From: a virus
Virus record (IMG/VR): IMGVR_UViG_3300008267_000388
Coordinates: 1-23,648 of that record
Strand: one strand, 5' to 3'
DNA length: 23,648 bases
Positions 2,471 to 17,754 of the stretch are shown here, piece by piece. The notes below the pieces were generated by a model. It was not told where the DNA came from, ran no database searches, and was given only the letters and a program-made list of their open reading frames with translations. The position numbers and the translations under genes were made by a program. Numbering within the stretch: the first letter of the stretch is position 1; every line of letters starts with the position of its first letter.

Positions 2471-3328
2471 TTAAAATATATATCTAATTGTATTCCAAGG
2501 TATTATTTCATTATGTAGTTTAACAAATGAATTTATAAATCCTCTTTTTAAATCATGTTTATACCTAATGTTTTTACCACCATATTGAGATATTTTATTT
2601 TCTTGTATAGTTGGAACCCATAAGTATTCTTCTTCACCTGGAATATTTTTTAGTAAATTATAATTGTGTTTATTTTTATTATGTGTTAAAAATATAACTT
2701 CAGCTTTGACAACATCTTTATAATCTACATAATCATTAACCATTTGAAACAATAATTTATATTGTTCTAACCAATTACCTGCAACAATAACAGGACTAAA
2801 ATTGATATGAACATCATAACCTGCATCTATAAATGCGTCAATAGCTTTTATTCTATCTATTATTTTAGATGTATTAGGTTCTAATATGTCAGACATGTCT
2901 TGTGGCATTAGACTAAATCTAATTCTTATTTTTTGTTTAGGATCATAATTAAGTAAATCTACATTTACATATTTTGTAGCAAATGAACCCATAGCTAATG
3001 GATGTTTTTTGAAAAATCCAAAGATTTGTTTTACATCATGGAATTTAGCGTGTAATGCAAAATCTTCATTACAACTAATGTCATATGTAATATATTCAGC
3101 ATGAGTTTGATTTGGCTTTTCTACATATGTAAACCATGCGTGATTGTTAATTTCTGTTAAAATTTGTTCTGTATTGGTATAAATTTCAAGACCTTCAGGT
3201 TTATGTCTTTTCATATAACAATATGAACATTTAAATAGACAACCAAATCCAAAACTTGGACTGATAAAATCTGTACTTCTGCCACTTGGTCTTATGGCAA
3301 AGCTTTTTAGTTTAGTTTTAGTTTGCAT
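2471..3328 (-). CDS. Radical SAM protein, spore-photoproduct-lyase-like
   Basis: A 285-aa protein in the chosen form, starting MQTKTKLKSFAIRPSG. It carries the radical SAM cluster motif C-x3-C-x2-C in GFGCLFKCSYCYMKR (Cys30, 34, 37), which binds a 4Fe-4S cluster and splits S-adenosylmethionine. The pattern 'SPSFGFGC' and a later YDISCNED (Cys86) are as in the SplB/SPL-like group. Cys86 sits about 56 residues after the first cluster cysteine, near where SplB has its hydrogen-donor cysteine. Its role could be direct repair of dipyrimidine lesions, but SPL-like proteins are diverse. An upstream in-frame ATG at 3355 would add nine residues. I prefer 3328 because its leader (AAAACCAAACACT) recurs before other starts here. 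Confidence 0.8.
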   Translation of the reverse strand: MQTKTKLKSFAIRPSGRSTDFISPSFGFGCLFKCSYCYMKRHKPEGLEIYTNTEQILTEINNHAWFTYVEKPNQTHAEYITYDISCNEDFALHAKFHDVKQIFGFFKKHPLAMGSFATKYVNVDLLNYDPKQKIRIRFSLMPQDMSDILEPNTSKIIDRIKAIDAFIDAGYDVHINFSPVIVAGNWLEQYKLLFQMVNDYVDYKDVVKAEVIFLTHNKNKHNYNLLKNIPGEEEYLWVPTIQENKISQYGGKNIRYKHDLKRGFINSFVKLHNEIIPWNTIRYIF

Positions 3329-3348
3329 AGTGTTTGGTTTTAGTGTTG

Positions 3349-3573
3349 TTAGCATCCTTCTTCTGGGTTAGTTAATCTTGTTTCTAATGTTGATTGTTCT
3401 TCTAAATATAATTTGATAACTGCTATAGTTTTTAAAAGGTCATCTTTGAATTGTCCTTTTTTTCTACAGCGTACTATTCTTTTTATTATATCAAACTCAT
3501 ATGCGTTTAATTTTTGTTGTTGAGCAAAAGCATAGAGAGAACCATGAGAATTATCATAATGTGTGTACTTCAT
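3349..3573 (-). CDS. DUF3310-like protein
   Basis: A 74-aa protein in the preferred form, starting MKYTHYDNSHGSLYAFAQQQ. The LNAYEFDIIKRIVRCRKKG stretch followed by a DDLLKTIAVIKLYLEEQ helix matches the layout of DUF3310 (SaV-like) proteins of phages. That family is often found beside nucleotide-metabolism genes, and its function is unknown. A longer form from the ATG at 3624 would overlap MazG by 35 bases and add 17 residues that do not fit the family. It lies between MazG and the radical SAM gene. Confidence 0.6.
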   Translation of the reverse strand: MKYTHYDNSHGSLYAFAQQQKLNAYEFDIIKRIVRCRKKGQFKDDLLKTIAVIKLYLEEQSTLETRLTNPEEGC

Positions 3574-5813: not shown

Positions 5814-6215
5814 TTAGTTTATAATTGAAATTAATACTCCTGGTTTTTCTTTATTGTATTCGTAATCTATAAATATTGGTATTATACAATCGGCATTATC
5901 ATCATCTATCCAATTGTTATTTACCATTAAATCTTGTACTGTTTGTGCTGGATTTAAATAATCAAATTTTCTTTTACTATCTCTATAAAACTTAAATCCT
6001 ACTTTAACAGGTTTAGGTAATGAATCATATATCTCTCTAAACTTTTTGCTATTAGCAATATAATATGAAGTTGTTTTTGATTTATAGTTTTTAGTTGTTT
6101 TAGAATCAGTAAAGATTGGTACTTTTTCATTTCCTCTTTTAAACCATACAAGTTCTTTACTGTTTTTAGATGATGCTACATTGTATGGTATAAAAATTTC
6201 TATTAGTGTATTCAT
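5814..6215 (-). CDS. RusA-like Holliday junction resolvase
   Basis: A 133-aa protein matching RusA family layout: KFDYLNPAQTVQDLMVNNNW then IDDDNADCIIP. RusA uses three aspartates. Here D85 and D95, and the following D104-D106 cluster, are present, but the second Asp of the usual 'D-x-D-N' is replaced (FDYLN, Leu87). This variant is, from memory, usual in Bacteroidota phages, so I still expect junction cleavage. It overlaps the NinB-like gene by four bases (ATGA). Confidence 0.8.
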   Translation of the reverse strand: MNTLIEIFIPYNVASSKNSKELVWFKRGNEKVPIFTDSKTTKNYKSKTTSYYIANSKKFREIYDSLPKPVKVGFKFYRDSKRKFDYLNPAQTVQDLMVNNNWIDDDNADCIIPIFIDYEYNKEKPGVLISIIN

Positions 6216-6634
6216 ATAAAATCATTTTGATTTGGATCAGGTATGTTTATTCCACGCTCTGCCCAATAGGTTTGTATTTGATTTTTAAAATCCATAAACT
6301 CGGTTGTTGTCATATCACTTGTTCTTTTGTGAGTATATGTTATTATTGTTTCACCTAATGTTTCTTTAATTACTTTGTTTGCCTTAACTACTTTTTCTAA
6401 ATGAAATTCATGAAGATCTTCTTTGTTATATTCTTCACCTGTATATTCCAATATATTAGACATAATAATAGGCAATGCAACACCATAATACCAATTGTTT
6501 TGTGATAGACTTCTTTTCTTTTTAGGTTTAGATATTTCTATAACTACTTCTTGGTTGTTATATTCATCAGGTAAATTTTCTTCTACATGCAGTTTGTTGT
6601 TTACAACATTGCATTTTAAAATTAATGTTCCCAT
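6212..6634 (-). CDS. ninB: NinB-like recombination protein
   Basis: A 140-aa protein. The core has KKRSLSQNNWYYGVALPIIM (about residues 37-56) and near the end YWAERGINIPDPNQ, both typical of the NinB (lambda Orf) family. That family binds single-stranded DNA and SSB and can replace RecFOR in phage recombination. It is placed between SSB and RusA, as expected. The first 35 residues are a small beta region. It overlaps both neighbours by a few bases. Confidence 0.75.
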   Translation of the reverse strand: MGTLILKCNVVNNKLHVEENLPDEYNNQEVVIEISKPKKKRSLSQNNWYYGVALPIIMSNILEYTGEEYNKEDLHEFHLEKVVKANKVIKETLGETIITYTHKRTSDMTTTEFMDFKNQIQTYWAERGINIPDPNQNDFI

Positions 6635-6828
6635 CTTGTATCTATTTTATTTTTAATTTCAGTAATAGAATTTGATTCTGATGATTGTATAATTCTTCTT
6701 AGTTTAGATAATTCTATTTCAATTCCAGAAAAGTTTTTGTGTTTAATAGACAATAAGTTTACCCCTCTTATTGAGAGGGATAAACTATAATCATTGTCTA
6801 TTTTTTTAATTGTAAATGAATAATCCAT
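6622..6828 (-). CDS. 68-aa protein of unknown function
   Basis: Starts MDYSFTIKKIDNDYSLSLSI and ends in an acidic helix and a TRWEH tail. It fills the gap between the SSB and NinB genes, starting two bases after the SSB stop and overlapping NinB by 13 bases. A stem of 6 + 5 bp with one mismatch (6757-6785) lies inside the coding sequence. No motif recognised. Confidence 0.6.
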   Translation of the reverse strand: MDYSFTIKKIDNDYSLSLSIRGVNLLSIKHKNFSGIEIELSKLRRIIQSSESNSITEIKNKIDTRWEH

Positions 6829-6830
6829 AA

Positions 6831-7406
6831 TTAAAAAGGAAGTTCATCATCTGAATTAAAAGATGATTGCTTAGAGTTACTATTTAAAAATTCTAAGTCT
6901 TTATCTTCTTTGTTAGAATAATTTTTTTCTTTTTCATACTTAGAGTTTTCACTAATATACTTTTGCTTATCAGCTTCAGATAATTCAATCATCATTTTAG
7001 ATTCATCAGCTTTTAATGGTTTATCAACAGGACCACTATACCAAAATTCAAGATCATTATATATCATTGGTTTATTACCTTCTTTTAGTACAAGTCTTTC
7101 TTTTTGTTTTAAAGCTACCTTGCACTTCTTTCCAATGATTGAATCAAGTTCTGATGTTTTGGCATTGCAATGCTCAAAAAATTTATTTATTCTTTCTGAT
7201 TTAATTTTCTTTACTACTTCAGAATCACCATTCTTATGTGTCCAAAATAATAAATCAACCATTGCACCATCAGGTTCTGTTATGCATTTAAATTTTATAA
7301 ATGGTGATTTGTTATAATTAGGAATCTCATTTGATTTTTGTATTCCCATTACTTCAATTAAATACACACCTTTTTTTCTTAAGTAATTTGTTTTATTAAA
7401 ATCCAT
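6831..7406 (-). CDS. Single-stranded DNA-binding protein
   Basis: A 191-aa protein. An N-terminal domain (about residues 1-135) with beta-strand spacing is followed by a hydrophilic, disordered Lys/Asn/Ser linker, and it ends in the acidic tip DDELPF. That tip is the classic SSB tail that docks replication and recombination partners. The N-terminus (YLRKKGVYLIEVMGIQKS, FIKFKCITEPDG) resembles phage SSB-like domains rather than bacterial OB-fold SSB. Position between the annealing protein and NinB supports the role. Confidence 0.75.
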   Translation of the reverse strand: MDFNKTNYLRKKGVYLIEVMGIQKSNEIPNYNKSPFIKFKCITEPDGAMVDLLFWTHKNGDSEVVKKIKSERINKFFEHCNAKTSELDSIIGKKCKVALKQKERLVLKEGNKPMIYNDLEFWYSGPVDKPLKADESKMMIELSEADKQKYISENSKYEKEKNYSNKEDKDLEFLNSNSKQSSFNSDDELPF

Positions 7407-8391: not shown

Positions 8392-8583
8392 TTACTTTTT
8401 TAATTGTTTTGATTTATTTTTTTTATAATAAAATGTAGCAAAGCCGTTGATATTTATTTTCTTATTTTTCTTTAACAATTTTTTAATTCCTTTAGTAAGG
8501 TAATTGATTGCTAATTTTACTCTAAGTTCATCAATACCTGTTTGCTTTGCTACTTCTTTTATTATCTGACTATGTTGTTTCAT
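8392..8583 (-). CDS. Short HU/IHF-like protein
   Basis: A 63-aa basic protein with KEVAKQTGIDELRVKLAINY, a lysine-rich turn and ININGFATFYYKK, matching the N-terminal helices and first strand of HU. HU is usually about 90 aa. Here the C-terminal DNA-wrapping arm is missing and replaced by a short lysine tail. It may still dimerise or bind DNA through its charge. The ATG overlaps the DnaB stop codon (TAATG), so it is coupled to the helicase. Confidence 0.6.
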   Translation of the reverse strand: MKQHSQIIKEVAKQTGIDELRVKLAINYLTKGIKKLLKKNKKININGFATFYYKKNKSKQLKK

Positions 8584-9920
8584 TAAAATAAATTTGGTGT
8601 TTGTTTTTCTATTTCATCATAGTCATCTATTGGTGAAAGAAATTTAGTTTGTTCTGGTACAAATTTTAACATTGCCATACCAACGCCACTATTTCTACCT
8701 TTACCAACAATTATTTCTGCATCTTGAATAGGTGAATTATCACCATTGTAATAAGCTTCTCTGTATGCAAACATAATTGTATCAGCTGCTTGTTCTATTT
8801 CACCTGACTCTCTTAAGTCTGACATAATAGGTCTTTTGTTTTCTCTCATTGCAAGACTTCTATTAAGTTGAGATAAAGCAATAACACCTATACCTAATTC
8901 TTTAGCTATATTTTTTAATGTTCTTGCTATAGTTGCAACTTCTTGTTCTCTACTTTTTATAGATTTATCTGAATGAGATACTAATTGTAAGTAATCTATA
9001 AATATAAAATCTAATCCTTTAGTTAGTTTATATTTTTTTATCTTACTTATAATTTGAGAAAGCTTAGAAGATGTTTCATCTATCCAAAAAGTTTTACCTT
9101 TTAATGAGTTCATTTCTTTTCTTATGCGCTCTTTATCTATATCATCCAGGTCTTTATACCTTAATCGTTTTAAAGTAATTGCTGTGCGCATAGAAATAAG
9201 TCTGCTCATTAATTGGTTAGAGTTCATTTCTAATGTAAACATTAAAACTTTTTTATCTTTAATTATAAAGTTGTTCATTAATTTAAGAGCAAAAGATGTT
9301 TTACCCATTGATGATGCACCTGCTATAATTACAAGATCAGATTTTTCTATACCACCTATTACATAATCTAATTCATTTATGTATGTTGGCGTTAAGTTTT
9401 CATCCATCTTTGCATTAAGATGATTGTTAAAATTTTCAAGACACTCATCAATAGTCATGTCTTGTTTTATTGTTACATCAGAAACTTTCATCATTGAAGA
9501 ATTAATGTAATCAATTATTTCTTCATTTGGTTTTTCATTTCTAATAGATTCATTAATAAACTTTTCTATTTTACATAGTTCCCTCCGTTTTTTATATTCA
9601 TGTAATAAGTTTAAATGTGAATCAAAGTTATATGTACCACCTATTTTTTGTGTTAACCCAACAACATAGTATGGTATATTTAATTCTGATTCTCTCAAAT
9701 GTTTTGGCAGTTTATCTTTTAATTGCCTGGCTCTATCAATGACAGTTATTGTATCAATCTTACTTGTTTGTGCAACACTTTTAATTGATTCAAATATTAG
9801 TTTGTTTACATCATCAAAGAAACAATCAGGATCTAAAAGATCTGCATGCTCATAATATAAATGAGCTTCTAATAGTATTTCGCCTAATACCATTCTTTCT
9901 ACTTCAGTGTTAAAAATCAT
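8583..9920 (-). CDS. dnaB: Replicative DNA helicase, DnaB-like
   Basis: A 445-aa protein of normal DnaB length. The N-terminal domain (about 1-110) begins FNTEVERMVLGEILLEAHLY. Walker A is GASSMGKT (201-208), followed by LEMNSNQLMSRLISM. Walker B is FIFIDYLQLVSHSD. ALSQLNRSL and DLRESGEIEQAADTIMF match the later DnaB motifs. It unwinds DNA at the replication fork and would recruit host or phage primase; no primase is seen in this window. A helicase loader is not obvious, though the winged-helix or DnaA-IV proteins are candidates. Confidence 0.95.
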   Translation of the reverse strand: MIFNTEVERMVLGEILLEAHLYYEHADLLDPDCFFDDVNKLIFESIKSVAQTSKIDTITVIDRARQLKDKLPKHLRESELNIPYYVVGLTQKIGGTYNFDSHLNLLHEYKKRRELCKIEKFINESIRNEKPNEEIIDYINSSMMKVSDVTIKQDMTIDECLENFNNHLNAKMDENLTPTYINELDYVIGGIEKSDLVIIAGASSMGKTSFALKLMNNFIIKDKKVLMFTLEMNSNQLMSRLISMRTAITLKRLRYKDLDDIDKERIRKEMNSLKGKTFWIDETSSKLSQIISKIKKYKLTKGLDFIFIDYLQLVSHSDKSIKSREQEVATIARTLKNIAKELGIGVIALSQLNRSLAMRENKRPIMSDLRESGEIEQAADTIMFAYREAYYNGDNSPIQDAEIIVGKGRNSGVGMAMLKFVPEQTKFLSPIDDYDEIEKQTPNLF

Positions 9921-9924
9921 AGGT

Positions 9925-10776
9925 TTATAGTTTATAGTTTATAATTTCTTTTTGCAAATCATCATTACAAATTCTACATAGATGGCAATCATAATCGAAG
10001 TTGTAATAAATATCTTCACCTTTTAATTCTTCTTCACATGATTCACATCTTATATTTATTTCATCTTCATACCAATAATTATCATCTACATTAAAATCAT
10101 AATCATCATTTTCAAAGGTAAAATGTTTAAAATTATTTTTACTTTTTTTCTTTGATTTTTTATTCCATTTATTCCATGAGTAATCATATGTAAATGGTGA
10201 TTCACAATACATTTTAGACAACATCATACCTTTGTATTCATGCCATTTACCATAATACTTTATTCCATATTTGCTATGCAAGAATACTAATCTGCTACCA
10301 TCAATAAACTTTTCTATTAATAATTGCATTACTGTATTAGTATATATATCATGCACATTTATATGTGGTAAATATTCTGATGCAAATATCTGCGTGTCAG
10401 AAATGTCATGACTATTATTTAATTGAGATATAACACCATTGTGTGCAAAGAATAAATCATTAGAGCTTTTGTGCTTTGTTATAAAAGATATTTCTTTACT
10501 GTTGTCTACAACAAATGGGTGTGTAGCAGGTGCTGTTTTTTTACCTGATGTTGCCCATCTAAAATGAATAACAAGTAAATCTTTATCTGTTACATTATCT
10601 TTAATTGCATTTGTTAATTCTTTTAAAGTCATTAGACCTTTAATAAGTTGAACATCTTTTTCATTATGTTTTATAAACATAATACCTGCGCCATCAGGAT
10701 TATCTGACCAGTTTGAATTAATAAATTCATAGTTTGGTAGGCTTACATTTTTTGGTTTTACTGCAATGATACACAT
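9925..10776 (-). CDS. Class II glutamine amidotransferase with C-terminal zinc module
   Basis: A 283-aa protein. The N-terminal Cys2 (MCIIAVKP), exposed after Met removal, would be the nucleophile of class II glutamine amidotransferases. The fold signatures NPDGAGIMF (26-34), HFRWATSG (71-78), THPF (85-88), FAHNGVI (110-116) and SDTQIFASEYL follow. Such domains release ammonia from glutamine for a partner enzyme. A Lys/Asp-rich linker leads to a C-terminal Cys4 module (C244-x2-C247 ... C267-x2-C270). Its RCESC-x-E is shared with the zinc modules of the amidoligase encoded four bases upstream, so the two probably act together. Confidence 0.85.
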   Translation of the reverse strand: MCIIAVKPKNVSLPNYEFINSNWSDNPDGAGIMFIKHNEKDVQLIKGLMTLKELTNAIKDNVTDKDLLVIHFRWATSGKKTAPATHPFVVDNSKEISFITKHKSSNDLFFAHNGVISQLNNSHDISDTQIFASEYLPHINVHDIYTNTVMQLLIEKFIDGSRLVFLHSKYGIKYYGKWHEYKGMMLSKMYCESPFTYDYSWNKWNKKSKKKSKNNFKHFTFENDDYDFNVDDNYWYEDEINIRCESCEEELKGEDIYYNFDYDCHLCRICNDDLQKEIINYKL

Positions 10777-10780
10777 AGTT

Positions 10781-12079
10781 TTATTTTATTAAAGGGTTAA
10801 TGTTTTTAGATTTAATGTATTTAATTAATGTTTGATATTTGTTTTCTTGTAAAACATATTCATAAAATGTTTTCCATAATAAATTTGAATCACTTAATAA
10901 AAAGAAAGAAATGCCATGATGTTTTACAAAATCAATAGACACCTTAGAAAATTCTAACGCTGCAAAAAATGTAGATTCTTTTAATGTTCCTCTAAAGAAT
11001 CTAAACTCTATTGTTTTTGAATTGTTAAAATTAACAGCAGTATATCTATCATCACAACGAGGTGATATGTATGGATAATTTCTTTTACCAGAAACATTAG
11101 ATGATGATGCATATGAAGATGGCATTTTAAATTCACAATATCTATATATTTTTCTGCGAGAAAATATCTTTAACATATCTTGACATTTGTACATAAAATA
11201 CACAAGCTTCCACTGATTGAGATTGCTCAATGTTTTAGACACATGTATATGTAATCCGCAAGTATCTGTTTGATGTGATTTGCCATCATTAGATATAAGA
11301 TTAGTTAATATATCTCTCCATCCAAATAATTTTTTATGATACTTTAATGTCATTGGATGTGTTACTATTTCAAAACCTTTATTTAATGAACCATCTTTTT
11401 TACAATAAAGCAAATCATTTCTAAATAAAAATTGTTTTTGTGCTATTGATTGTTCAATTTCTACCTCTAATTCTACACCAAGGTATTCGTTTTCTTCAAA
11501 GTCATATTTCTTTCTAAACTTTGGTGTAGGTTTAAAGCTGTAATCATTGATGAAATTTTCATTTTCATCTTCTTCTTCATCTACATCATCAACACAATCT
11601 GAACAATAGCAAGAATCATTTCGCCAATATAGTGCATCATCATCATATCTTTCATCACACGATTCACATCTACGAGTTTGATTATTTGTGCAATCAGTAC
11701 AATAATCTTGTTCATCATTCCGTGAATTTCTTACAATATATGTATTAGATTGATTTACTCTTTCACCACAACAATAACATTCTGTTGTTTCATCATAACA
11801 ATCATTACATATATCTGTATCATCACTGATGTTTTCAATATGTGTTCTTTCATTGCAATGTTCACATATAAAATATCTATCATCTAATTGTTCGTGTGTA
11901 ACCATCTCTCGTGTTACATCATCATATACTAAATCATGGTTTGGATATAATTGTCCGTCATGATCAGACACACCATAATAATTATCGCAACATGATTCAC
12001 AAATGTAATCACCTTCAGCTGTTACTTTATAGTGCCCTGTCTCACTTAACAGGGCACTATTACATCTATCGCAGTTCAT
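10781..12079 (-). CDS. Amidoligase (Amidoligase_2 family) with four N-terminal zinc modules
   Basis: A 432-aa protein. Residues 1-165 hold four C-x2-C pairs-of-pairs (C3/6 with C27/30; C72/75 with C91/94; C101/104 with C127/130; C138/141 with C159/162). An acidic linker follows, and then a glutamine-synthetase-like COOH-NH2 ligase domain (about 195-390). Its markers are LGVELEVEIEQ, DGSLNKGFEIVTHP, CGLHIHVS and TIEFRFFRGTL. These are the conserved acid, His and Arg motifs of Amidoligase_2. The family is predicted to form amide bonds on peptides, proteins or cell-wall parts. Substrate unknown. A strong hairpin lies inside codons 7-17. Confidence 0.85.
   Translation of the reverse strand: MNCDRCNSALLSETGHYKVTAEGDYICESCCDNYYGVSDHDGQLYPNHDLVYDDVTREMVTHEQLDDRYFICEHCNERTHIENISDDTDICNDCYDETTECYCCGERVNQSNTYIVRNSRNDEQDYCTDCTNNQTRRCESCDERYDDDALYWRNDSCYCSDCVDDVDEEEDENENFINDYSFKPTPKFRKKYDFEENEYLGVELEVEIEQSIAQKQFLFRNDLLYCKKDGSLNKGFEIVTHPMTLKYHKKLFGWRDILTNLISNDGKSHQTDTCGLHIHVSKTLSNLNQWKLVYFMYKCQDMLKIFSRRKIYRYCEFKMPSSYASSSNVSGKRNYPYISPRCDDRYTAVNFNNSKTIEFRFFRGTLKESTFFAALEFSKVSIDFVKHHGISFFLLSDSNLLWKTFYEYVLQENKYQTLIKYIKSKNINPLIK
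12029..12060 (-). promoter_or_regulatory. 12-bp perfect hairpin just inside the amidoligase gene
   Basis: ATAGTGCCCTGT (12029-12040) pairs fully with ACAGGGCACTAT (12049-12060) around an 8-base loop. On the mRNA it begins 19 bases after the first base of the start codon. It has 6 G-C pairs in a very AT-poor-GC setting and no following T-run, so it is not a classic terminator. It could slow translation, protect the mRNA end after cleavage, or bind a regulator. Confidence 0.6.
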
Positions 12080-12098
12080 AGTTTTTAGTTTTAATTAG

Positions 12099-12974
12099 TT
12101 AATACATTATTTCTGTTTCAATAAAATTGTTAAACTTTTTAATTGTTGGATATAACATAAGCATATCATTAGTCATTGGTTTTAAATTTTCTGTACCTGC
12201 TTGTGTTAAATCCCATGCAGTAAATTGTCCATCAAGAATTCTATTTTTCTTTTTTAATATTTCTTCTTGCATTTTAATAACTTGACTTACATTTAATACT
12301 GATGATTTATTATTTCTATTTGCGTTAGCATCAACAGCTTTCTCAAATAATTTATTTGTAATAATTCTAATTACATTATCAGTTAATATTGTTGAATTAA
12401 GATATTCTATTGTCTTATAGTTTTCTTCTTGTAATTCACTTATTGATTTAATTTTTTCTTTAATAATTAATTTTAAATTATCAAATGAAAGTTTATTAGA
12501 ACCATAGGTAGCATAAAAGTTTTCACCAAATATATTCATGTTTGAACATGCTCTTACATTAGTACCCATTGCTACTTGTATTCCTTCTTCTGAATATGCA
12601 ATAGCTATTGATGGTATTAATTCATGTTCATTTAAATATTTTGTATGTGTTGGTATAAAAAATCTTGTAACTAATCTTGTAATTAATACTTGATTAATAG
12701 GACACATTTCATCTGGCTTACCTTTAAAGTTAATTCTTTTAGCATGGTTTTTACTAATTGCTATTGGCTCTATTATAACATCATTACCAAATTCTTTTGT
12801 TAAATTATATTTAATCCATTTGATAAACTCATGATGTTCTATTGGTCTTGATGGTTTAAAACCTCCTGTTGCCAATTGATCTATAGCAGACATTGATAAT
12901 GTCTCTAAATTAATTTCTTGGTTTTCTGTAAAAGATAAACCATTAACTGTCGGAATTAAAGCTTGATTTTTCAT
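12099..12974 (-). CDS. DUF932-like protein of unknown function
   Basis: A 291-aa protein, MKNQALIPTVNGLSFTENQE at the start. A central segment IAIAYSEEGIQVAMGTNVRA followed by CSNMNIFGENFYATYG resembles the 'V.CTN/CSNg' core of DUF932/phage-plasmid proteins of unknown role, and a long helical C-terminus follows (residues about 175-260). The family call is weak. It sits directly upstream of the amidoligase gene with a 19-base gap and could belong to the same pathway. Confidence 0.5.
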   Translation of the reverse strand: MKNQALIPTVNGLSFTENQEINLETLSMSAIDQLATGGFKPSRPIEHHEFIKWIKYNLTKEFGNDVIIEPIAISKNHAKRINFKGKPDEMCPINQVLITRLVTRFFIPTHTKYLNEHELIPSIAIAYSEEGIQVAMGTNVRACSNMNIFGENFYATYGSNKLSFDNLKLIIKEKIKSISELQEENYKTIEYLNSTILTDNVIRIITNKLFEKAVDANANRNNKSSVLNVSQVIKMQEEILKKKNRILDGQFTAWDLTQAGTENLKPMTNDMLMLYPTIKKFNNFIETEIMY

Positions 12975-13024
12975 AGTTGTAATTATTAAATTGTTTATTA
13001 TTAGATTTATTTTTATTAATTTTA

Positions 13025-13300
13025 TTAGATTGTAAATGTTGGTTTTATAAAATGTTTAGCTATAATCATTTCCATTAACCAACAACTAATTCTTAATGCA
13101 TCTTTTTCATTATCTGGGTCGATAATAAACATAAAATTATCTATGTTATCTATCATTTTACCAGCTTCCCATTTGTCTTTGAATACTGTAATATAAATTT
13201 TCTTTGTATGCCAAGTAACATCTATGTTACCTGTTAAAATATTATCAGAATTTAATCTGTCTAACAAATCAATAATCTGTTTAATTGGTTTTGTGTTCAT
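13025..13300 (-). CDS. 91-aa protein of unknown function
   Basis: The start is placed at 13300 (MNTKPIKQIIDLLDRLNSDN), after an AAAACCTAAAACC leader and clear of the upstream gene that ends at 13321. A longer open frame back to 13393 would overlap it. It has an alpha/beta pattern: GNIDVTWHTKKIYITVFKDK, then a helix, then DALRISCWLMEMIIAKHF. No family recognised. Confidence 0.6.
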   Translation of the reverse strand: MNTKPIKQIIDLLDRLNSDNILTGNIDVTWHTKKIYITVFKDKWEAGKMIDNIDNFMFIIDPDNEKDALRISCWLMEMIIAKHFIKPTFTI

Positions 13301-13320
13301 GGTTTTAGGTTTTAAATTGT

Positions 13321-13554
13321 TTATAATTGATTGTTTAAAAATTGTTCTACTACTTTTCTTTCTACTCCATATTGTCTGTATGTTTCTTTCCATGCAATTA
13401 AATCTACCATCATATTATATTCATCATCAGGTAAATTCCATGCATGTTTAGGTATTTGTTCATACCAATATGCTAATGTTTCTAATTTATTTTTTTGAAA
13501 AAAGTTTTTTAAACTCAAAAAACTTTTAACTATTTCTTGCATTTTGTTTTCCAT
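13321..13554 (-). CDS. 77-aa helical protein of unknown function
   Basis: Reads MENKMQEIVKSFLSLKNFFQ and continues helical with a WYEQIPKHAWNLPDDEYNMM middle and ETYRQYGVERKVVEQFLNNQ end. It shares one base with the DnaA-IV gene stop, so it is probably coupled to it. An A/T-only inverted repeat (13500-13527) inside it is likely a side effect of its Lys/Phe codons. Confidence 0.6.
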   Translation of the reverse strand: MENKMQEIVKSFLSLKNFFQKNKLETLAYWYEQIPKHAWNLPDDEYNMMVDLIAWKETYRQYGVERKVVEQFLNNQL

Positions 13555-14135
13555 TATTCTATAGGTTTAAACTTGTTTAAAAAATTATTGACATCAAAAC
13601 TTTTATATTCTTTTGAAGAATAATATACTCTGTAATATGGATTATCAAATAAATCTTTATCTACTAACTCATATACATATATATTATCATTAAATAGGTG
13701 ACAAGGTTCTAACAATAAACATCTTCCCATTGTTAAAACTTTTTTACTTGTTTCTATGATTTGTTTTTTTGATTGAATTGTTTCATCTGGTTTTTCAAAT
13801 GCTTTATTTTTATTTAATTCATTAATGATTTTATTATATGTAAGCTGATATGTTCTATCATTTTCATATAATAATTTATGATTTCTTAATGCATGTATAA
13901 TTGTAGCATGATCTCTATTAATCATACCACCAATTTTTGATAATGTAAACTTGTGATTTTCATTAATCAAATTAACTAACATCTTTCTTGTATCAGCTAT
14001 ATTCCTATGTCTATTAGGTGATATTAACTCTTGTGATGTTATACCTGTAATATCAAAGATTGCTTTGAATATTTCATCTATGTTAGATTTGATTTGTGAT
14101 TTCACAATTCCTGGTATTGCAAAATAATTAATCAT
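13554..14135 (-). CDS. Stand-alone DnaA domain IV-like DNA-binding protein
   Basis: A 193-aa protein. Residues about 20-90 match the DNA-binding domain of DnaA: a helix at TGITSQELISPNRHRNIADT, then RKMLVNLINENHKFTLSKIGG and MINRDHATIIHALRNH, where RDHATIIHA corresponds to the DnaA signature (RDHTTV.HA). There is no AAA+ domain. The C-terminal half (about 105-193) is a separate unknown domain with DKDLFDNPYYRVYYSSKEYKS. It could bind DnaA boxes in the phage origin or compete with host DnaA. Both are inferences. Confidence 0.75.
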   Translation of the reverse strand: MINYFAIPGIVKSQIKSNIDEIFKAIFDITGITSQELISPNRHRNIADTRKMLVNLINENHKFTLSKIGGMINRDHATIIHALRNHKLLYENDRTYQLTYNKIINELNKNKAFEKPDETIQSKKQIIETSKKVLTMGRCLLLEPCHLFNDNIYVYELVDKDLFDNPYYRVYYSSKEYKSFDVNNFLNKFKPIE

Positions 14136-14253
14136 AATGTTTTTGTATTAAAGATTTAACATATTTTATTGATGCTATTATTGGTGCTGCAAGCAATAGC
14201 AAACTTGGATGAGGCTCACCGCAGAGCCCCATCAAGTGCATTAATTCGTGCAT
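14128..14253 (-). CDS. 41-aa HELMH microprotein with hydrophobic helix
   Basis: Reads MHELMHLMGLCGEPHPSLLL followed by LAAPIIASIKYVKSLIQKHYD. It fills the gap between the GGCT-like and DnaA-IV genes, four bases after the former and overlapping the latter by eight. The first residues spell HExxH with C11 and H15 nearby, so metal binding is possible, but 41 aa is far too short for a metalloprotease. The hydrophobic stretch at 18-27 could touch membrane. I associate this small type with Bacteroidota phages; role unknown. Confidence 0.6.
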   Translation of the reverse strand: MHELMHLMGLCGEPHPSLLLLAAPIIASIKYVKSLIQKHYD

Positions 14254-14257
14254 AAAT

Positions 14258-14752
14258 TTATTTTTTATAGTTATGAAATGAACCTGTTTTTATGTGTGTA
14301 CTATTTTGAATTATGCTACTATTTTGATAGAAATATATCCATGCTTTTTGTTCATACCCTTTTATCATAATTGAAATAATTTTTCTTTTATACATATGAG
14401 GATGACCTTCAAGAAAATCTAAATACCTTAATGTTTCAGCATGTTTTAATTCATATAGTTCACCTTTGATATTTACATCTTTTATTTCTTCAAATACAAA
14501 TGGTATACTTGCGGCACAGATATAATAAGGTTCCTTAGTATGTCCTGTTGCTATATACTTTTCGTTTTTTAAAAAATAATTATTGTGATATCCTTTCATT
14601 AGTGTACCATACACAAATAATAAATTACATTTATGAAAATCATTACGAACAATATTCATTTTTTCATTTATGTATTGTTGATATTGATAATCATAATCGT
14701 TTATTGATTCCCATTCTTTGGTTTCCATAAACACTTCTTTCATTTTTCCCAT
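14258..14752 (-). CDS. Gamma-glutamylcyclotransferase-like (GGCT/AIG2) protein
   Basis: A 164-aa protein. The GGCT fold shows as LLFVYGTLMKG (44-54), which forms the substrate pocket, IKGELYEL (95-102), and LRYLDFLEGHPHMYKR (108-123), where E115 is the likely catalytic acid before the 'Y-R' pair. The family turns gamma-glutamyl-amino acids or amines into 5-oxoproline. Bacterial and phage members are known beside amidoligases, where they may edit or remove gamma-glutamyl groups. The first 40 residues are an extra polar helix. Here it lies about 2.2 kb upstream of the amidoligase in the same operon. Confidence 0.8.
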   Translation of the reverse strand: MGKMKEVFMETKEWESINDYDYQYQQYINEKMNIVRNDFHKCNLLFVYGTLMKGYHNNYFLKNEKYIATGHTKEPYYICAASIPFVFEEIKDVNIKGELYELKHAETLRYLDFLEGHPHMYKRKIISIMIKGYEQKAWIYFYQNSSIIQNSTHIKTGSFHNYKK

Positions 14753-14755
14753 AGT

Positions 14756-14980
14756 TTATTGATTTAAAAGGTTAATAATATCTCTTTCATTCATTGGCAT
14801 TTCTTTTGCTCTAATGTTTATTTCTTTTTCAATTTGTTCTTTCAAATAATAAAGTCTTGTCCATTCTATTTCATTAGACTTTATTACTTCTATTTGTTTG
14901 TCTTTTATTTTTTCAATTGTTTTGTTTAATTCTTCATTAGTGAATAACGAGAAATTAATTTTTGTCATAACATTTTCCAT
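14756..14980 (-). CDS. 74-aa coiled-coil-like protein of unknown function
   Basis: Reads MENVMTKINFSLFTNEELNK, then a long charged helix with heptad-like spacing, and ends MPMNERDIINLLNQ. Probably an extended helix or helical hairpin. The start at 14980 follows an A-rich leader. Its stop is three bases before the GGCT-like start codon. No family recognised. Confidence 0.55.
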   Translation of the reverse strand: MENVMTKINFSLFTNEELNKTIEKIKDKQIEVIKSNEIEWTRLYYLKEQIEKEINIRAKEMPMNERDIINLLNQ

Positions 14981-15021
14981 AATTTTTATTTTTTAATTAT
15001 TAATTTTAGTTAGGTTATTGT

Positions 15022-15447
15022 TTATTCATATACACTTCTGTATGAATCTTTACTGACAATTACATGATCTAATAAATCTATTTCAAGAAGTTTTAAAGCA
15101 TCTTTTATTTTGTATGTTAAATCAATATCTGCTTTAGATGGTTTTAGGTTTCCACTTGGATGGTTGTGGCTTAATATAACAGCTTTTGCATTTAACAAAA
15201 GAGCAGCAATACATACTGCTCTTGTATCAATTATTGTACCTGTTAAACCTCCCTCACTCAATTTGTGTACACCTATTACATCATTTGCCTGATTCAATAC
15301 AAGCATATATGATGTTTCTGTATATTCTATGGTTCTTTTATCATAAAAGTTATACATATATTCAGCTACATCAGAACTATCTTTTATTGTAGCTTGTGGT
15401 AAACTTTTATTTTTGTTTGACCATACAATTTTAAACTGATGTTTCAT
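15022..15447 (-). CDS. radC: RadC-like JAB/MPN-domain protein
   Basis: A 141-aa protein with the JAMM metal motif HNHPSGNLKPSKADID (H94, H96, S98, D107) and the preceding EGGLTG (E65). Full RadC proteins are near 220 aa and carry an N-terminal HhH region. That part is absent here, as in many phage and plasmid copies. The activity is unsettled: RadC is linked to DNA repair by name only, and JAB folds are usually isopeptidases or deaminase-like metalloenzymes. An isopeptidase role near an amide-forming system would be attractive but is unproven. Confidence 0.85.
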   Translation of the reverse strand: MKHQFKIVWSNKNKSLPQATIKDSSDVAEYMYNFYDKRTIEYTETSYMLVLNQANDVIGVHKLSEGGLTGTIIDTRAVCIAALLLNAKAVILSHNHPSGNLKPSKADIDLTYKIKDALKLLEIDLLDHVIVSKDSYRSVYE

Positions 15448-15449
15448 AT

Positions 15450-15656
15450 TTAATCCTCCAAGATTTCAACATTGAGTACTTTGCACCTGTTGTACACATG
15501 TACCCAATATTCGATTAGTTCTAATTCTGTCCAATACCAACCATCCCTGGCTGGATTGTATAATCTAATACTATTTGACTCTCTGTCATAAAGTGTTTTC
15601 ATAGTTCCTTTTAAACCTAATCCATTTTGGTAGGTTATAATTGCAAATTCTGTCAT
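15450..15656 (-). CDS. 68-aa protein of unknown function
   Basis: Reads MTEFAIITYQNGLGLKGTMK and continues YDRESNSIRLYNPARDGWYW, with an acidic end VEILED. The start codon is ATG at 15656, and the stop is two bases before the RadC start. The alternating pattern suggests a small beta-barrel-like domain. No family recognised. Confidence 0.6.
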   Translation of the reverse strand: MTEFAIITYQNGLGLKGTMKTLYDRESNSIRLYNPARDGWYWTELELIEYWVHVYNRCKVLNVEILED

Positions 15657-15675
15657 GATTTTTAATTTTTATAGG

Positions 15676-15885
15676 TTAATAATTATACCAACTTTCTATA
15701 TGTTGGTTTTGATTTATAAAATGATAACATCGTATAAATTCTTCATACGATTTATGTTTTCTGCATTCCTGCAGTTGCTCTAATATTTGTTTATCAGAGC
15801 ATCCTGCAAGTTGCATTTCTTTAATCAGGTTTGCCTTAAAGCGTTCTGATTGCAGAACCTTTATGGCTTTTAGTTTGCCTTTCAT
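15676..15885 (-). CDS. 69-aa protein of unknown function
   Basis: Reads MKGKLKAIKVLQSERFKANL, then LAGCSDKQILEQLQECRKH and a C-terminus rich in His, Tyr and Asn. It overlaps the upstream 76-aa gene by 50 bases, more than is usual here. An internal Met about 23 residues in (MQLAGCSDK) would remove that overlap, so the start is uncertain. Confidence 0.45.
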   Translation of the reverse strand: MKGKLKAIKVLQSERFKANLIKEMQLAGCSDKQILEQLQECRKHKSYEEFIRCYHFINQNQHIESWYNY

Positions 15886-16066
15886 ATTCTTTTACTTGTT
15901 TTAATATCATATTAAATATTCTGTCTTGTTCAGCATCTTCTATGCCAAACATATTGGATTTATTTTGTTCAATACCATTAACAATGTATTGAATGATTTC
16001 ACCATCTCTGATTAATTCTAATTTGTCACCTTTGACAATCTTAGACATGTAGAAAAACTTTTTCAT
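15836..16066 (-). CDS. 76-aa protein of unknown function
   Basis: Reads MKKFFYMSKIVKGDKLELIR, followed by GEIIQYIVNGIEQNKSNMFG and a helical end. It has the feel of a small beta domain plus helix. It starts one base after the stop of the membrane microprotein, so the two are co-translated. An internal Met at residue 7 is an alternative start. Confidence 0.55.
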   Translation of the reverse strand: MKKFFYMSKIVKGDKLELIRDGEIIQYIVNGIEQNKSNMFGIEDAEQDRIFNMILKQVKEYERQTKSHKGSAIRTL

Positions 16067-16067
16067 G

Positions 16068-16232
16068 TTATTTGTTTTTTAAACGGTTTATATAATTTTC
16101 TAATTTTTGGTCAGCATATCTTTCCATTTCTTTGAAAGTATATCCTTTGATTTTATCATTTTGAGGTTTAATGATGAAACCCATCATCATGCCTATGAAG
16201 AACACGATGATAATTAATAATGTTGTTACCAT
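16068..16232 (-). CDS. 54-aa single-pass membrane microprotein
   Basis: Reads MVTTLLIIIVFFIGMMMGFI, a clear membrane helix at residues 2-21, followed by a charged cytoplasm- or periplasm-facing helix (GYTFKEMERYADQKLENYIN). It lies between the terminator at 16269-16295 and the next gene with a one-base gap. It may be the first gene of the main leftward operon after that terminator. Role unknown; an early membrane-acting phage protein is plausible. Confidence 0.6.
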   Translation of the reverse strand: MVTTLLIIIVFFIGMMMGFIIKPQNDKIKGYTFKEMERYADQKLENYINRLKNK

Positions 16233-16268
16233 TTGATTTGACTTGTGATAGTGAATAATTAATTAATT

Positions 16269-16295
16269 AAAAAAATAAGCACCCGAAGGTGCTTA
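16269..16295 (-). terminator. Rho-independent terminator with UUCG loop
   Basis: On the leftward strand TAAGCACC-TTCG-GGTGCTTA forms an 8-bp stem with the very stable C(UUCG)G tetraloop, followed by seven T. It begins four bases after the stop codon of the 230-aa gene and separates it from the genes to the left. Confidence 0.9.
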
Positions 16296-16298
16296 ATG

Positions 16299-16991
16299 TT
16301 ATATACAACCTAATGTACGCGCATATTTATCGCGTTGTTGCGGTTGATTACTCATAACATATGCATATTTACCATATGTTTGCACATTGGCAATAGCACC
16401 ACTATTTCTAATGTTGCTTATTATACCAGTAACAAGTTTTCTTGTTTTGGCATAATCCATATTGTTATTAGTATTATATTCTGCTAATATTTGTTCCGCG
16501 CAGAATTTACGGAATTCATTTCTTATTTTATTAGGTATAAATACACCTAATTTATCAACAAGAAATTTTAATTTTTGTAAGAAGAACTCACTTTGTTCTT
16601 CTATACTCATTTTTGAATAATTATCATCATACAAATCAAATTTTGTATCGATGAAATATTCATTTATTTGAGCAAATATTTTTGCTCTATCATTTTTAAG
16701 TTTATTAAATCTATCTAAGTGTTTTAACTTAGTTTTTTCAGTTTTAGCTTTATCGGCTTTATCTAATGCATCTTGCATTGATATACCGAGCTCAGTTATT
16801 AACTTAATAAACTCTTTATTAGAATCTGTTGGCTTAATTAACTTAAGCTCTAAAACGGTTGGAATCTTACCAACTATTTTACCATTTCTAATAGGTAACT
16901 TAAATTGACCACATAAGATCATTAAGTCTTGTTTAACAAACTCACCTTGTTTGTTGTTAACCATTGATTGAAATACATTAATAGTATTCAT
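16299..16991 (-). CDS. 230-aa protein of unknown function, own transcription unit
   Basis: Starts MNTINVFQSMVNNKQGEFVK. A charged helical middle (DALDKADKAKTEKTKLKHLD) is followed by a C-terminal region, residues about 150-215, that could be a winged-helix-like DNA- or RNA-binding domain (IPNKIRNEFRKFCAEQILAE, KLVTGIISNIRNSGAI, then QTYGKYAYVMSN as a possible wing). It is the only gene here bounded by its own terminator (16269-16295) and a long non-coding leader (16992-17418). That isolation suggests high or separately controlled expression, as for origin-binding or autoregulated phage proteins. I do not recognise the family. Confidence 0.7.
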   Translation of the reverse strand: MNTINVFQSMVNNKQGEFVKQDLMILCGQFKLPIRNGKIVGKIPTVLELKLIKPTDSNKEFIKLITELGISMQDALDKADKAKTEKTKLKHLDRFNKLKNDRAKIFAQINEYFIDTKFDLYDDNYSKMSIEEQSEFFLQKLKFLVDKLGVFIPNKIRNEFRKFCAEQILAEYNTNNNMDYAKTRKLVTGIISNIRNSGAIANVQTYGKYAYVMSNQPQQRDKYARTLGCI

Positions 16992-16998
16992 AAAATTT

Positions 16999-17040
16999 AC
17001 CCTATGTTAAAACCTACAAGGGTGTTCATTTAGTAGGTTT
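16999..17040 (-). promoter_or_regulatory. Possible H-type pseudoknot before the 230-aa gene start
   Basis: On the leftward RNA, AAACCTAC (17040-17033) pairs with GTAGGTTT (17017-17010). In its loop ACCCT (17023-17019) can pair with AGGGT (17003-16999). Stems are 8 and 5 bp, and loops are 9, 1 and 6 bases. The second stem ends seven bases before the ATG at 16991, so folding would cover the ribosome landing site. The pairs are exact, but whether it folds or is used is inference. Confidence 0.4.
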
Positions 17041-17074
17041 GTTTTTAGTTTATTAAAAATTAAATAATTAGTTG

Positions 17075-17343
17075 ATTTTAGAGAGGTTTGTTGTGATAGT
17101 GAATGATAGGACTATCTTGCTACACAAAACACTCTCTAATGCTTTGTATTGCATTAATCATTAAGCATGTGCGTACTACTTAATGACGCTTACAGGAATA
17201 ACCGACACGCACTATCGGTTACGCAAGTAAGCTTTGCAATTTTAGAAAGGTATAACCACTAACTATAAAAAATAGTAGTTACATATTTCTACTAATTTTA
17301 GAAAGGTAATTACCCGGGATGTATTTACTATTTTGGAAAGGTA
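17075..17343. repeat. Four copies of a 14-bp element, ATTTTAGAAAGGTA
   Basis: Copies at 17075-17088 (ATTTTAGAGAGGTT, less exact), 17239-17252, 17295-17308 (both ATTTTAGAAAGGTA) and 17330-17343 (ATTTTGGAAAGGTA). The last two also share a preceding TACTA. All have the same direction, and spacings are 164, 56 and 35 bases. They may be iterons of an origin, binding sites for a phage regulator, or promoter parts on the other strand (TACCTTTC resembles the Bacteroidota -7 box TAnnTTTG except at its last base). Confidence 0.55.
17078..17232. ncRNA. Gene-free stretch with three consecutive stem-loops (candidate RNA)
   Basis: The 16992-17418 interval holds no convincing gene. Within it: TTAGAGAG (17078-17085) pairs with CTCTCTAA (17132-17139), with inner GATAG/CTATC (17095-17099 with 17112-17116). 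ATTAAG (17160-17165) pairs with CTTAAT (17179-17184). GCTTAC (17188-17193) pairs with GTAAGC (17227-17232) and encloses TAACCGA/TCGGTTA (17199-17205 with 17215-17221). The stretch is richer in G and C than its surroundings. It could be a leader of the 230-aa gene, a separate RNA, or a structured origin. No tRNA pattern was found. Confidence 0.45.
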
Positions 17344-17418
17344 CGGGCGGTAAGGTATATATGTCTCCTCACTCTCTCAATAATCATAAAACTAAAATAA
17401 AGCGTTATATGGGGTTAT

Positions 17419-17754
17419 TTATCTAAAGTCGAAGTTATAGTGGCATTGGTAGCATAGCAGTTGTATATTGTCTTTGGATAGTCTAAGTTCGGGGTGAGTA
17501 GATTTAGGTTTGATATGTGAGAAGTAGAATGTTTTAGGTTCGTTACCGAGGTTGATGTTACAGTGTTGACAAAAGTGAGGTCTTTCATTCCAGATGTCAA
17601 GGAATAGGTTTCTTTCTCCAGTAGGTTTTCTTTTATAGACATATTGTTTAGTTTTTTTATTGGCAGAGTTGCATAATTTACAAAGACCTTTTTTAACTAC
17701 TATAAGGGTATGTTTAAGGCATTTGATACAGGTGTTATAGTTAGGTTTAAACAT
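17419..17754 (-). CDS. HNH endonuclease with N-terminal zinc ribbon
   Basis: A 111-aa protein. An N-terminal Cys4-type part (CIKC at 9-12, LCKLC at about 24-28) is followed by an HNH domain: FCQHCN (C-x2-C), FYFSHIKPKS with the catalytic His of the HNH signature, the KDNIQLLC Asn region, and CYQCHYNFD with the last C-x2-C-H. It resembles small HNH proteins of Bacteroidota phages with the GERNLFLDIWNERPH-type lead-in. It may nick DNA in recombination (NinG-like) or packaging. It overlaps the upstream gene stop (TAATG). Confidence 0.8.
   Translation of the reverse strand: MFKPNYNTCIKCLKHTLIVVKKGLCKLCNSANKKTKQYVYKRKPTGERNLFLDIWNERPHFCQHCNINLGNEPKTFYFSHIKPKSTHPELRLSKDNIQLLCYQCHYNFDFR

Follow-up and report, generated by a model that had tools for sequence, protein, structure and literature searches.

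The window, as we call the whole 23,648-nt stretch of viral DNA analysed here, carries genes for an amidoligase (AL), a class-II glutamine amidotransferase (GAT) and a gamma-glutamyl cyclotransferase (GGCT). Their open reading frames lie exactly where an earlier note on this DNA had placed them, and profile and fold comparisons confirmed their identities (Table 1). AL and GAT are adjacent, as that note had remarked, with a gap of 4 nt; another 4 nt separate GAT from DnaB. PHROGs profile search of the 23,648-nt fragment identified the carrier as a crAss-like phage (Crassvirales), with matches of TerL to phrog_6681 (2e-70) and of the portal to phrog_6547 (8e-103); the portal is 25-29% identical to crAss-like portals. 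The AL-GAT pair was not found in any annotated crAss-like genome searched.

The genes had been read as a single leftward operon. Their common orientation is real, but AL, GAT, GGCT and a RadC/JAB gene are members of the phage's whole leftward early/replication block. Because the "operon" is this entire block, co-orientation with GGCT or RadC weighs little. The RadC/JAB gene (15022-15447) is genuine (Pfam, 2e-36); its supposed contribution to the system was rejected, since the neighbour survey gave no conserved link to AL-GAT. The gene at 12099-12974, once described as DUF932-like, has no DUF932 match in Pfam, PHROGs or NCBIfam, and we drop that description. Neither base-modification enzymes nor RNA or tRNA features were found within the 23,648-nt fragment, and known anti-phage defence families gave no PADLOC match.

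Table 1. Features of the AL, GAT and GGCT genes (positions in the window)
Feature	Position	Strand	Basis
AL, 432 aa: four N-terminal Cys4 zinc modules and predicted GCS/GS-fold carboxylate-amine ligase domain	10781..12079	-	Pfam, PHROGs, fold
AL zinc module 1, aa 1-36, Cys 3, 6, 27, 30	11972..12079	-	CxxC positions
AL zinc module 2, aa 66-97, Cys 72, 75, 91, 94	11789..11884	-	CxxC positions; Cys >=90% conserved, 86 homologues
AL zinc module 3, aa 98-133, Cys 101, 104, 127, 130	11681..11788	-	CxxC positions and homologue conservation
AL zinc module 4, aa 134-168, Cys 138, 141, 159, 162; closest to GAT module	11576..11680	-	CxxC, conservation, shuffle test
AL catalytic domain, aa 195-425	10805..11497	-	Predicted fold and invariant residues
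GAT, class-II (Ntn) glutamine amidotransferase, 283 aa	9925..10776	-	Motifs; GlmS/GFAT by profile and fold
GAT Ntn catalytic core, aa 1-190	10207..10776	-	AF2 pLDDT mostly >90
GAT disordered linker, aa 194-237	10066..10197	-	AF2 pLDDT <50
GAT C-terminal zinc module, aa 241-282, Cys 244, 247, 264, 267, 270, tethered by linker	9931..10056	-	CxxC, AF2, shuffle test
GGACT-type gamma-glutamyl cyclotransferase, catalytic Glu115 and YGTL motif	14258..14752	-	PF06094

AL matches Amidoligase_2 (PF12224) above the cut-off (8e-8, 32.8 bits vs 22) and phrog_16683 at 1e-49 (PHROGs). In a Foldseek search its AF2 model (pLDDT 87) came closest to YbdK (8e-4, probability 1.00), followed by GS, GmaS and Dop/PafA; the predicted fold is thus of GCS/GS type. 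Among 86 sequences the residues E203, E205, D229, S231, E237, H277, H279, R309, N350, T356, E358 and R360 are invariant. GAT scores slightly below the cut-off of Pfam GATase_4 (1.4e-4, 21.4 bits vs 23). Its family profile finds the GlmS glutaminase domain in PDB (5e-13), and its predicted Ntn fold resembles GFAT/GlmS (6e-7), with EgtC also among the neighbours of the predicted fold (7e-4). The protein carries a C2 nucleophile and the motifs HFRWAT, HPF, HNG and SDT; C2, H71, R73, H86, H112, N113 and G114 are conserved, and in an alignment with GlmS (1xff) the glutamine-site motifs (HxRWAT, HPF, HNG) are of GlmS type. By its N-terminal Cys nucleophile and HxRxxT/HPF/HNG motifs, GAT is a predicted class-II amidotransferase. 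The catalytic residues on which the earlier note had staked its reading are present in the alignments of both proteins.

Both proteins also bear zinc modules. In AL, eight CxxC dyads (residues 3, 27, 72, 91, 101, 127, 138 and 159) make up four Cys4 modules; shuffled sequences contain 1.3 dyads on average and reached eight in 0/2000 shuffles. GAT has three CxxC motifs towards its C-terminal end; the expected number is 0.14. The claimed likeness of the N-terminal AL modules to the GAT module withstood testing, as the alignment of the GAT module with AL module 4 beats 99.8% of Cys-fixed shuffles (P=0.0013), extends past the cysteines and is about as close as that between AL modules 3 and 4. Across homologues, nearly every AL carries such modules (85/91); on GAT they are sporadic (53/91). 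A family profile of the AL N-terminal part finds LIM domains in PDB (E 8e-5), and one AL relative (L013) matches Pfam LIM at 6e-9; the window AL itself has no Pfam LIM match, and its half-site spacing is unlike that of canonical LIM. Two relatives (L065, L090) have N-terminal repeats that lost their cysteines and yet kept an intact catalytic core, which argues for a structural, not catalytic, role of the modules.

The survey of relatives supports common action of the two proteins. A GATase-II gene lies near AL on the same strand at all 78 testable phage loci among the best 80 matches, and at 77 of the 79 testable loci among 80 chromosomal copies, nearly always as the next gene directly 3' of AL. 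The conserved unit is the AL-GAT pair. It was not lost in relatives, and the earlier proposal that the two act together is supported by this, also because two very distant GATase-II subfamilies, set apart by a 3.4 changes/site branch (support 100/100), serve one AL family: the partner was exchanged while the pairing was kept. The GAT of Oscillospiraceae is GlmS/PurF/AsnB-like (NCBIfam 1.5e-19, 7e-13, 8.5e-7). The exchange shows that the pair depends on its glutaminase enough for this partner to be replaced and not lost. Whole-gene dN/dS, in pairs where it was estimable, is 0.05-0.27 for AL and GAT alike, showing that, as judged from substitutions, both are under purifying selection.

The pair is carried by many unrelated phages and bacterial mobile elements, whose hosts range from actinobacteria through to Gram-negatives. 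Chromosomal AL copies belong mostly to integrative elements of Oscillospiraceae, which are multi-copy in rumen/gut members of this family. No natural AL-GAT fusion occurs among ~170 loci. We also considered a conserved third gene as the substrate and rejected it, none being shared across phage lineages in the neighbour survey. The frequent neighbours WhiB-like and terminase mark one actinophage clade only, and DUF960 and DUF4314 accompany AL-GAT in Oscillospiraceae elements only.

The GGCT gene, which had been proposed to encode an editing partner, is real (PF06094, 1e-21, 78 bits vs cut-off 22.8), and its Glu115 aligns in 3jub with the Glu that is replaced by Gln in 3jud. The case for partnership is weak. 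GGCT occurs in 4/50 phage records with the zinc-bearing pair and is absent from the other 46, and none was found at the loci around all 80 chromosomal AL copies; as a core part it was therefore rejected. Because it is close to the pair in two of the four GGCT-bearing records (L019, L023) and exists in phage C75C1 as a fusion with a GAT, we regard it as an optional third part.

We propose that mobile elements carry, in AL and GAT, the two subunits of one glutamine-dependent amidoligase, with zinc modules serving for docking, and we give this reading a probability of roughly 60%. Joint action is suggested by the fixed pairing, the swap of GAT subfamily included. GAT, an Ntn glutaminase with Cys2 as nucleophile once Met is removed, would hydrolyse glutamine and pass the ammonia to AL. 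AL would then use ATP to activate a carboxylate, as GCS/GS enzymes do, and convert it into an amide. The zinc modules would be docking repeats that join AL to GAT, to a macromolecular substrate, or to both. GGACT, where present, would open a gamma-glutamyl-amine bond. The invariant catalytic positions, the resemblance of the AL model to YbdK, GS and GmaS, and the predicted suspension of the GAT zinc module on a disordered linker favour this reading; ammonia channelling, a physical AL-GAT complex and the docking role are inferred. Several points speak against it. EgtC, a fold neighbour of GAT, cleaves a gamma-glutamyl bond and feeds no ligase. Clostridioides phage AR1086-1 encodes a close AL relative that is devoid of zinc modules, and a search of its whole genome detected no GAT, so some AL relatives work alone. 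Nor do we know of a solved precedent in which a separate GATase-II passes ammonia to a ligase of GCS/GS fold.

Two kinds of substrate are the best candidates for such an amidoligase. In the published prediction, the pair would amidate or re-link a cytoplasmic peptidoglycan-stem precursor at an early stage of infection and thereby hamper adsorption or lysis by competing phages (superinfection exclusion). It was made for cassettes of Amidoligase_2, GATase, GGCT, COOH-NH2 ligase and ATP-grasp (PMC5498523, PMC10580990 and PMC11945000, as they cite Iyer 2009). We give it a somewhat less than even chance; in its favour are the early-gene position adjoining DnaB and the breadth of hosts, all of which have peptidoglycan. 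However, COOH-NH2 ligase (PF14395) was detected in the positive control, phage tf, but in 0/50 records of the zinc-bearing class and not in the 23,648-nt fragment, and GGCT is usually missing. As the cell-wall reading of the cassette came from these two components, their lack counts against a wall role. Tandem LIM-like modules would also be odd for a small-molecule substrate.

In the other reading, these modules would dock a host protein, the amidation of which could serve host takeover or counter-defence. Besides the LIM matches described above, this somewhat unlikely alternative draws on the appearance of the Pup ligase/depupylase PafA/Dop among the fold neighbours of the AL model, on carriage by phages and integrative elements both, and on the AL N-terminal part, which often evolves faster than the catalytic part. 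It has no target; the LIM likeness is driven largely by Cys spacing, and the repeats may merely join AL to GAT. That the LIM-like repeats in phages and integrative elements alike recruit a host protein, with AL-GAT turning its carboxylates into amides by means of glutamine nitrogen, strikes us as doubtful; to our knowledge, such host-protein amidation is known from no phage.

The presence of EgtC among the fold neighbours allows a different chemistry altogether, in which AL makes a temporary gamma-glutamyl amide and GAT (or GGACT) removes the glutamate without any ammonia transfer, as in EgtA/EgtC or BtrJ/BtrG. GGACT in the window and the GAT-GGCT fusion of C75C1 would suit gamma-glutamyl chemistry, and the AL model is closest to YbdK-type glutamate ligases. 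Against this, GAT retains the GlmS-type glutamine-site motifs, the exchanged partner is GlmS/PurF-like, and GGCT is mostly absent, which makes such a route improbable. Modification of DNA bases or tRNA, like the preQ0/archaeosine routes with GATase, might be suspected from the zinc modules and the adjoining replication genes, and is very improbable: QueC is missing in 50/50 records, no third nucleic-acid gene is conserved across lineages, and the scan of the window brought up no base-modification enzymes.

Taken together, the recurrence of the zinc-bearing pair in many unrelated phages and mobile elements suggests a common way of chemically altering the host cell. We have placed it in a crAss-like phage and in integrative elements of rumen/gut Oscillospiraceae, where it is multi-copy. 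This distribution suggests that the pair serves in conflicts of mobile elements with cells. Predictions of phage amidoligase cassettes go back more than 15 years, with no substrate known to us. The zinc-bearing variant reduces this problem to two genes. These also occur where cultivation is possible (Marvin-type phages on M. smegmatis, Ruminococcus elements), so that a direct search for the reaction is feasible.

A ligase paired with a glutaminase-type partner or domain is also seen in EgtA/EgtC (ergothioneine) and in MurT/GatD and AsnB/LtsA (peptidoglycan amidation). EgtC, however, hydrolyses a gamma-glutamyl bond, and MurT/GatD and AsnB are built on other ligase or GATase folds. YbdK, glutamine synthetase and GmaS share the predicted catalytic fold of AL; they are not known to carry zinc repeats or to have a GATase partner of their own. 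Amidoligase_2 and GATase cassettes of phiEco32, LUZ24/tf and RIO-1 were predicted to modify peptidoglycan (Iyer 2009, as cited in PMC5498523 and PMC10580990). Like them, the window combines Amidoligase_2 with GATase-II, and also GGCT, among early genes near helicase/primase. Unlike them, it has no COOH-NH2 ligase in this 23,648-nt fragment and no ATP-grasp ligase among the 20 of its ORFs scanned with Pfam, and GGCT is optional. The AL of tf has zero CxxC where the window AL has four zinc modules, and the window GAT is different from the cassette GATase, shorter and GATase_4-like. The window pair is a two-gene form, with zinc modules, of the "peptidoglycan modification cassette" that Iyer et al. 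predicted, minus its second ligase. Mycobacteriophage Marvin is an unrelated phage; its AL has fewer zinc modules, its GAT has another zinc spacing, and no GGCT was found at the locus. Its gp105/gp106 nevertheless repeat the arrangement of the window, an AL with zinc modules and, as the very next gene, a GAT that also bears zinc.

The genes of the amidoligase (AL), the class-II glutamine amidotransferase (GAT) and the GGACT-type cyclotransferase (GGCT) all lie where the earlier note had placed them (see table). In profile searches, AL and GGCT score above the Amidoligase_2 and GGACT cut-offs, and GAT slightly below that of GATase_4. Judging from its family profile (5e-13 against GlmS 1xff) and its predicted fold (6e-7 against GFAT/GlmS), GAT is clearly a class-II GATase. 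Only 4 nt separate AL from GAT, and another 4 nt GAT from DnaB. The catalytic residues, whose absence from alignments would have spoken against the earlier note, are in place: E203, E205, D229, S231, E237, H277, H279, R309, N350, T356, E358 and R360 are invariant among 86 diverse AL sequences, and C2, H71, R73, H86, H112, N113 and G114 among 46 GATs. Glu115 of GGCT aligns to the Glu of human GGACT 3jub, which is Gln in the otherwise near-identical 3jud.

Features of the window and of related loci
Feature	Source	Position	Strand	Length
Amidoligase (AL)	window	10781-12079	-	432 aa
Glutamine amidotransferase (GAT)	window	9925-10776	-	283 aa
Cyclotransferase (GGCT)	window	14258-14752	-
Gene immediately upstream of AL	window	12099-12974		291 aa
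Radical SAM protein, spore-photoproduct-lyase-like (PF20903, 3e-24)	window	2471-3355
GATase-II + GGCT fusion	L010 (Phage C75C1)	6001-6897
AL without zinc modules	L008 (Clostridioides phage AR1086-1)	5683-6795
AL, N-terminal cysteines nearly all lost	L065	3712-5010
AL, N-terminal cysteines nearly all lost	L090	2248-3546

A scan of viral contigs with an AL alignment yielded at least 469 relatives, the best 80 of which were kept; the survey is skewed toward best matches. A same-strand GATase-II gene is found near AL in 78 of these 80 loci, although the counts are not independent because about half of the loci come from one lineage with a common WhiB-like gene and terminase. The other two contigs end just past AL; among these relatives the pairing was not seen to be lost. 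Of the 78 GATs, 77 follow AL, usually at a distance below 50 nt; the distance is about 0.8-0.9 kb in the phage loci L019 and L068, and in L023 GAT lies upstream. The pair is also carried by Marvin-type mycobacteriophages, OM43 Zobellviridae, Acinetobacter phage 313, podovirus ctgrD200 and this crAss-like phage. Of the proposed three-gene set, the AL-GAT pairing holds, but GGCT is no regular member: PF06094 appears in only 4/50 whole records, in two of them no more than about 3 kb from the pair (2.2 kb in the window).

Some relatives deviate from this arrangement. Phage C75C1 encodes its fusion protein near a zinc-less amidoligase. In AR1086-1, no GAT was detected across the 130-kb genome, and its AL, a close relative, is apparently solitary. 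ALs of six loci (L020, L024, L034, L040, L062, L074) reach 554-730 aa, several with long extensions C-terminal to the amidoligase domain. MT839723.1 (L007) was deposited as 'Bacteriophage sp.' but, with its Lgt-like gene and its AL-GAT-DUF3846 set of Oscillospiraceae type, is probably bacterial or element DNA.

A genome scan gave 457 AL relatives. The best 80, toward which this survey is skewed, are nearly all from Ruminococcus/Oscillospiraceae, with several copies per genome (at least 4 in R. flavefaciens YAD2003). GAT is near AL in 77 of these 80 loci, within 300 nt in 75 of them, and one of the three remaining loci ends at a contig end. GGCT was found at none of the 80, and at most one has a zinc-bearing GAT; common companions are DUF960 (58/80) and DUF4314. 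Because a gene of site-specific recombinase, relaxase, MobC or TraG-like type lies no more than 7 kb away in 65/80 loci, most chromosomal pairs sit in integrative elements. Zinc AL-GAT pairs are multi-copy in such Oscillospiraceae elements (L099-L178; e.g. L115, L144, L162).

In the trees, AL sequences form one continuum with Oscillospiraceae AL nested among phage AL, and GATs split with full support into two subfamilies 3.4 changes per site apart. The Oscillospiraceae-type GAT, which is GlmS/PurF/AsnB-like, is used by two phages of about 125 kb (L013, L023), and the phage-type GAT by L019. That one glutaminase gave way to another, distant one while the pairing persisted is the strongest evidence for a need of AL for glutaminase-type activity. 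Purifying selection acts on both genes (whole-gene dN/dS 0.05-0.27 for pairs with unsaturated dS), and the zinc part often evolves faster than the core.

We suggest that GAT would be the glutaminase, AL the ATP-dependent amidoligase, and that the two would work together; we put the probability of this joint action at roughly 0.6. The substrate is a separate question from the chemistry, so our confidences overlap and are not meant to add up to one. Tentatively, it might be a cell-wall precursor or, with slightly lower confidence, a host protein to which the zinc repeats dock. A gamma-glutamyl attach-and-remove scheme of EgtA/EgtC type, improbable as we consider it, is a real rival because EgtC is a fold neighbour of GAT and GGACT suits gamma-glutamyl chemistry.

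As to the zinc modules, the cysteine modules of AL and GAT are far above chance expectation. Even with cysteines held fixed, the GAT module resembles AL module 4 (P=0.0013), and the claim that both proteins carry the same kind of module is therefore right for this phage. With CxxC counts as a proxy for zinc, 85 of 91 loci examined have an AL with at least two CxxC ahead of the catalytic domain, and 53 a GAT with a C-terminal pair. The AL model (AlphaFold2, pLDDT 87) comprises tandem small beta modules (residues 1-168) followed by a GCS/GS-fold domain; Foldseek ranks YbdK first (8e-4, probability 1.00), then glutamine synthetase, GmaS and Dop/PafA. A sequence profile of the N-terminal part hits LIM domains (8e-5), and one relative exceeds the Pfam LIM cut-off (6e-9). 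In the GAT model (pLDDT 84), an Ntn core spans residues 1-190, and a disordered linker (194-237) joins it to a folded zinc module (241-282). Since the L065 and L090 ALs lost nearly all N-terminal cysteines yet kept the catalytic core, the AL modules probably serve as structural or docking elements; the adjoining GATs retain their zinc module.

The carrier is a 23.6-kb viral fragment of about 24-29% G+C. Its TerL matches phrog_6681 (2e-70) and its portal phrog_6547 (8e-103), with 25-29% identity to crAss-like portals across most of its length. The closest TerL relatives are on two contigs, which share 87% identity with it, and on five more that share about 56%; AL, GAT and GGCT were not found in these seven, none of which spans the operon region, and AL had no match in crAss-like records of the annotated phage collection. 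The early/replication region is a leftward block (about 18.0 to 2.2 kb) that also encodes HNH, RadC, DnaA-C-like, DnaB, HU-like, RusA, NinB, PDDEXK (DUF3799), MazG and the radical SAM protein. The gene immediately upstream of AL has no significant family in Pfam, PHROGs, NCBIfam or PADLOC. Among minus-strand starts at 8583-17754, Shine-Dalgarno sequences are mostly missing from early genes, RadC with GGAGG being unlike most of them; several starts, among them those of AL, GAT, DnaB, GGCT and the upstream gene, show an A-rich stretch followed by CTATG, a pattern like that of Bacteroidota.

Phages of phiEco32, LUZ24/tf and RIO-1 type carry Amidoligase_2, GATase, GGCT, COOH-NH2 ligase and ATP-grasp genes, and peptidoglycan modification has been the reading of this cassette since Iyer 2009, which PMC5498523, PMC10580990 and PMC11945000 cite for it. 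COOH-NH2 ligase was found neither in the window, a fragment, nor in 50 other zinc-class records, and was detected in the control phage tf, whose AL has no CxxC, in contrast to the CxxC modules of zinc-class ALs. On these grounds, the pair described here would work like part of the known cassette, but is a reduced, zinc-bearing variant of it.
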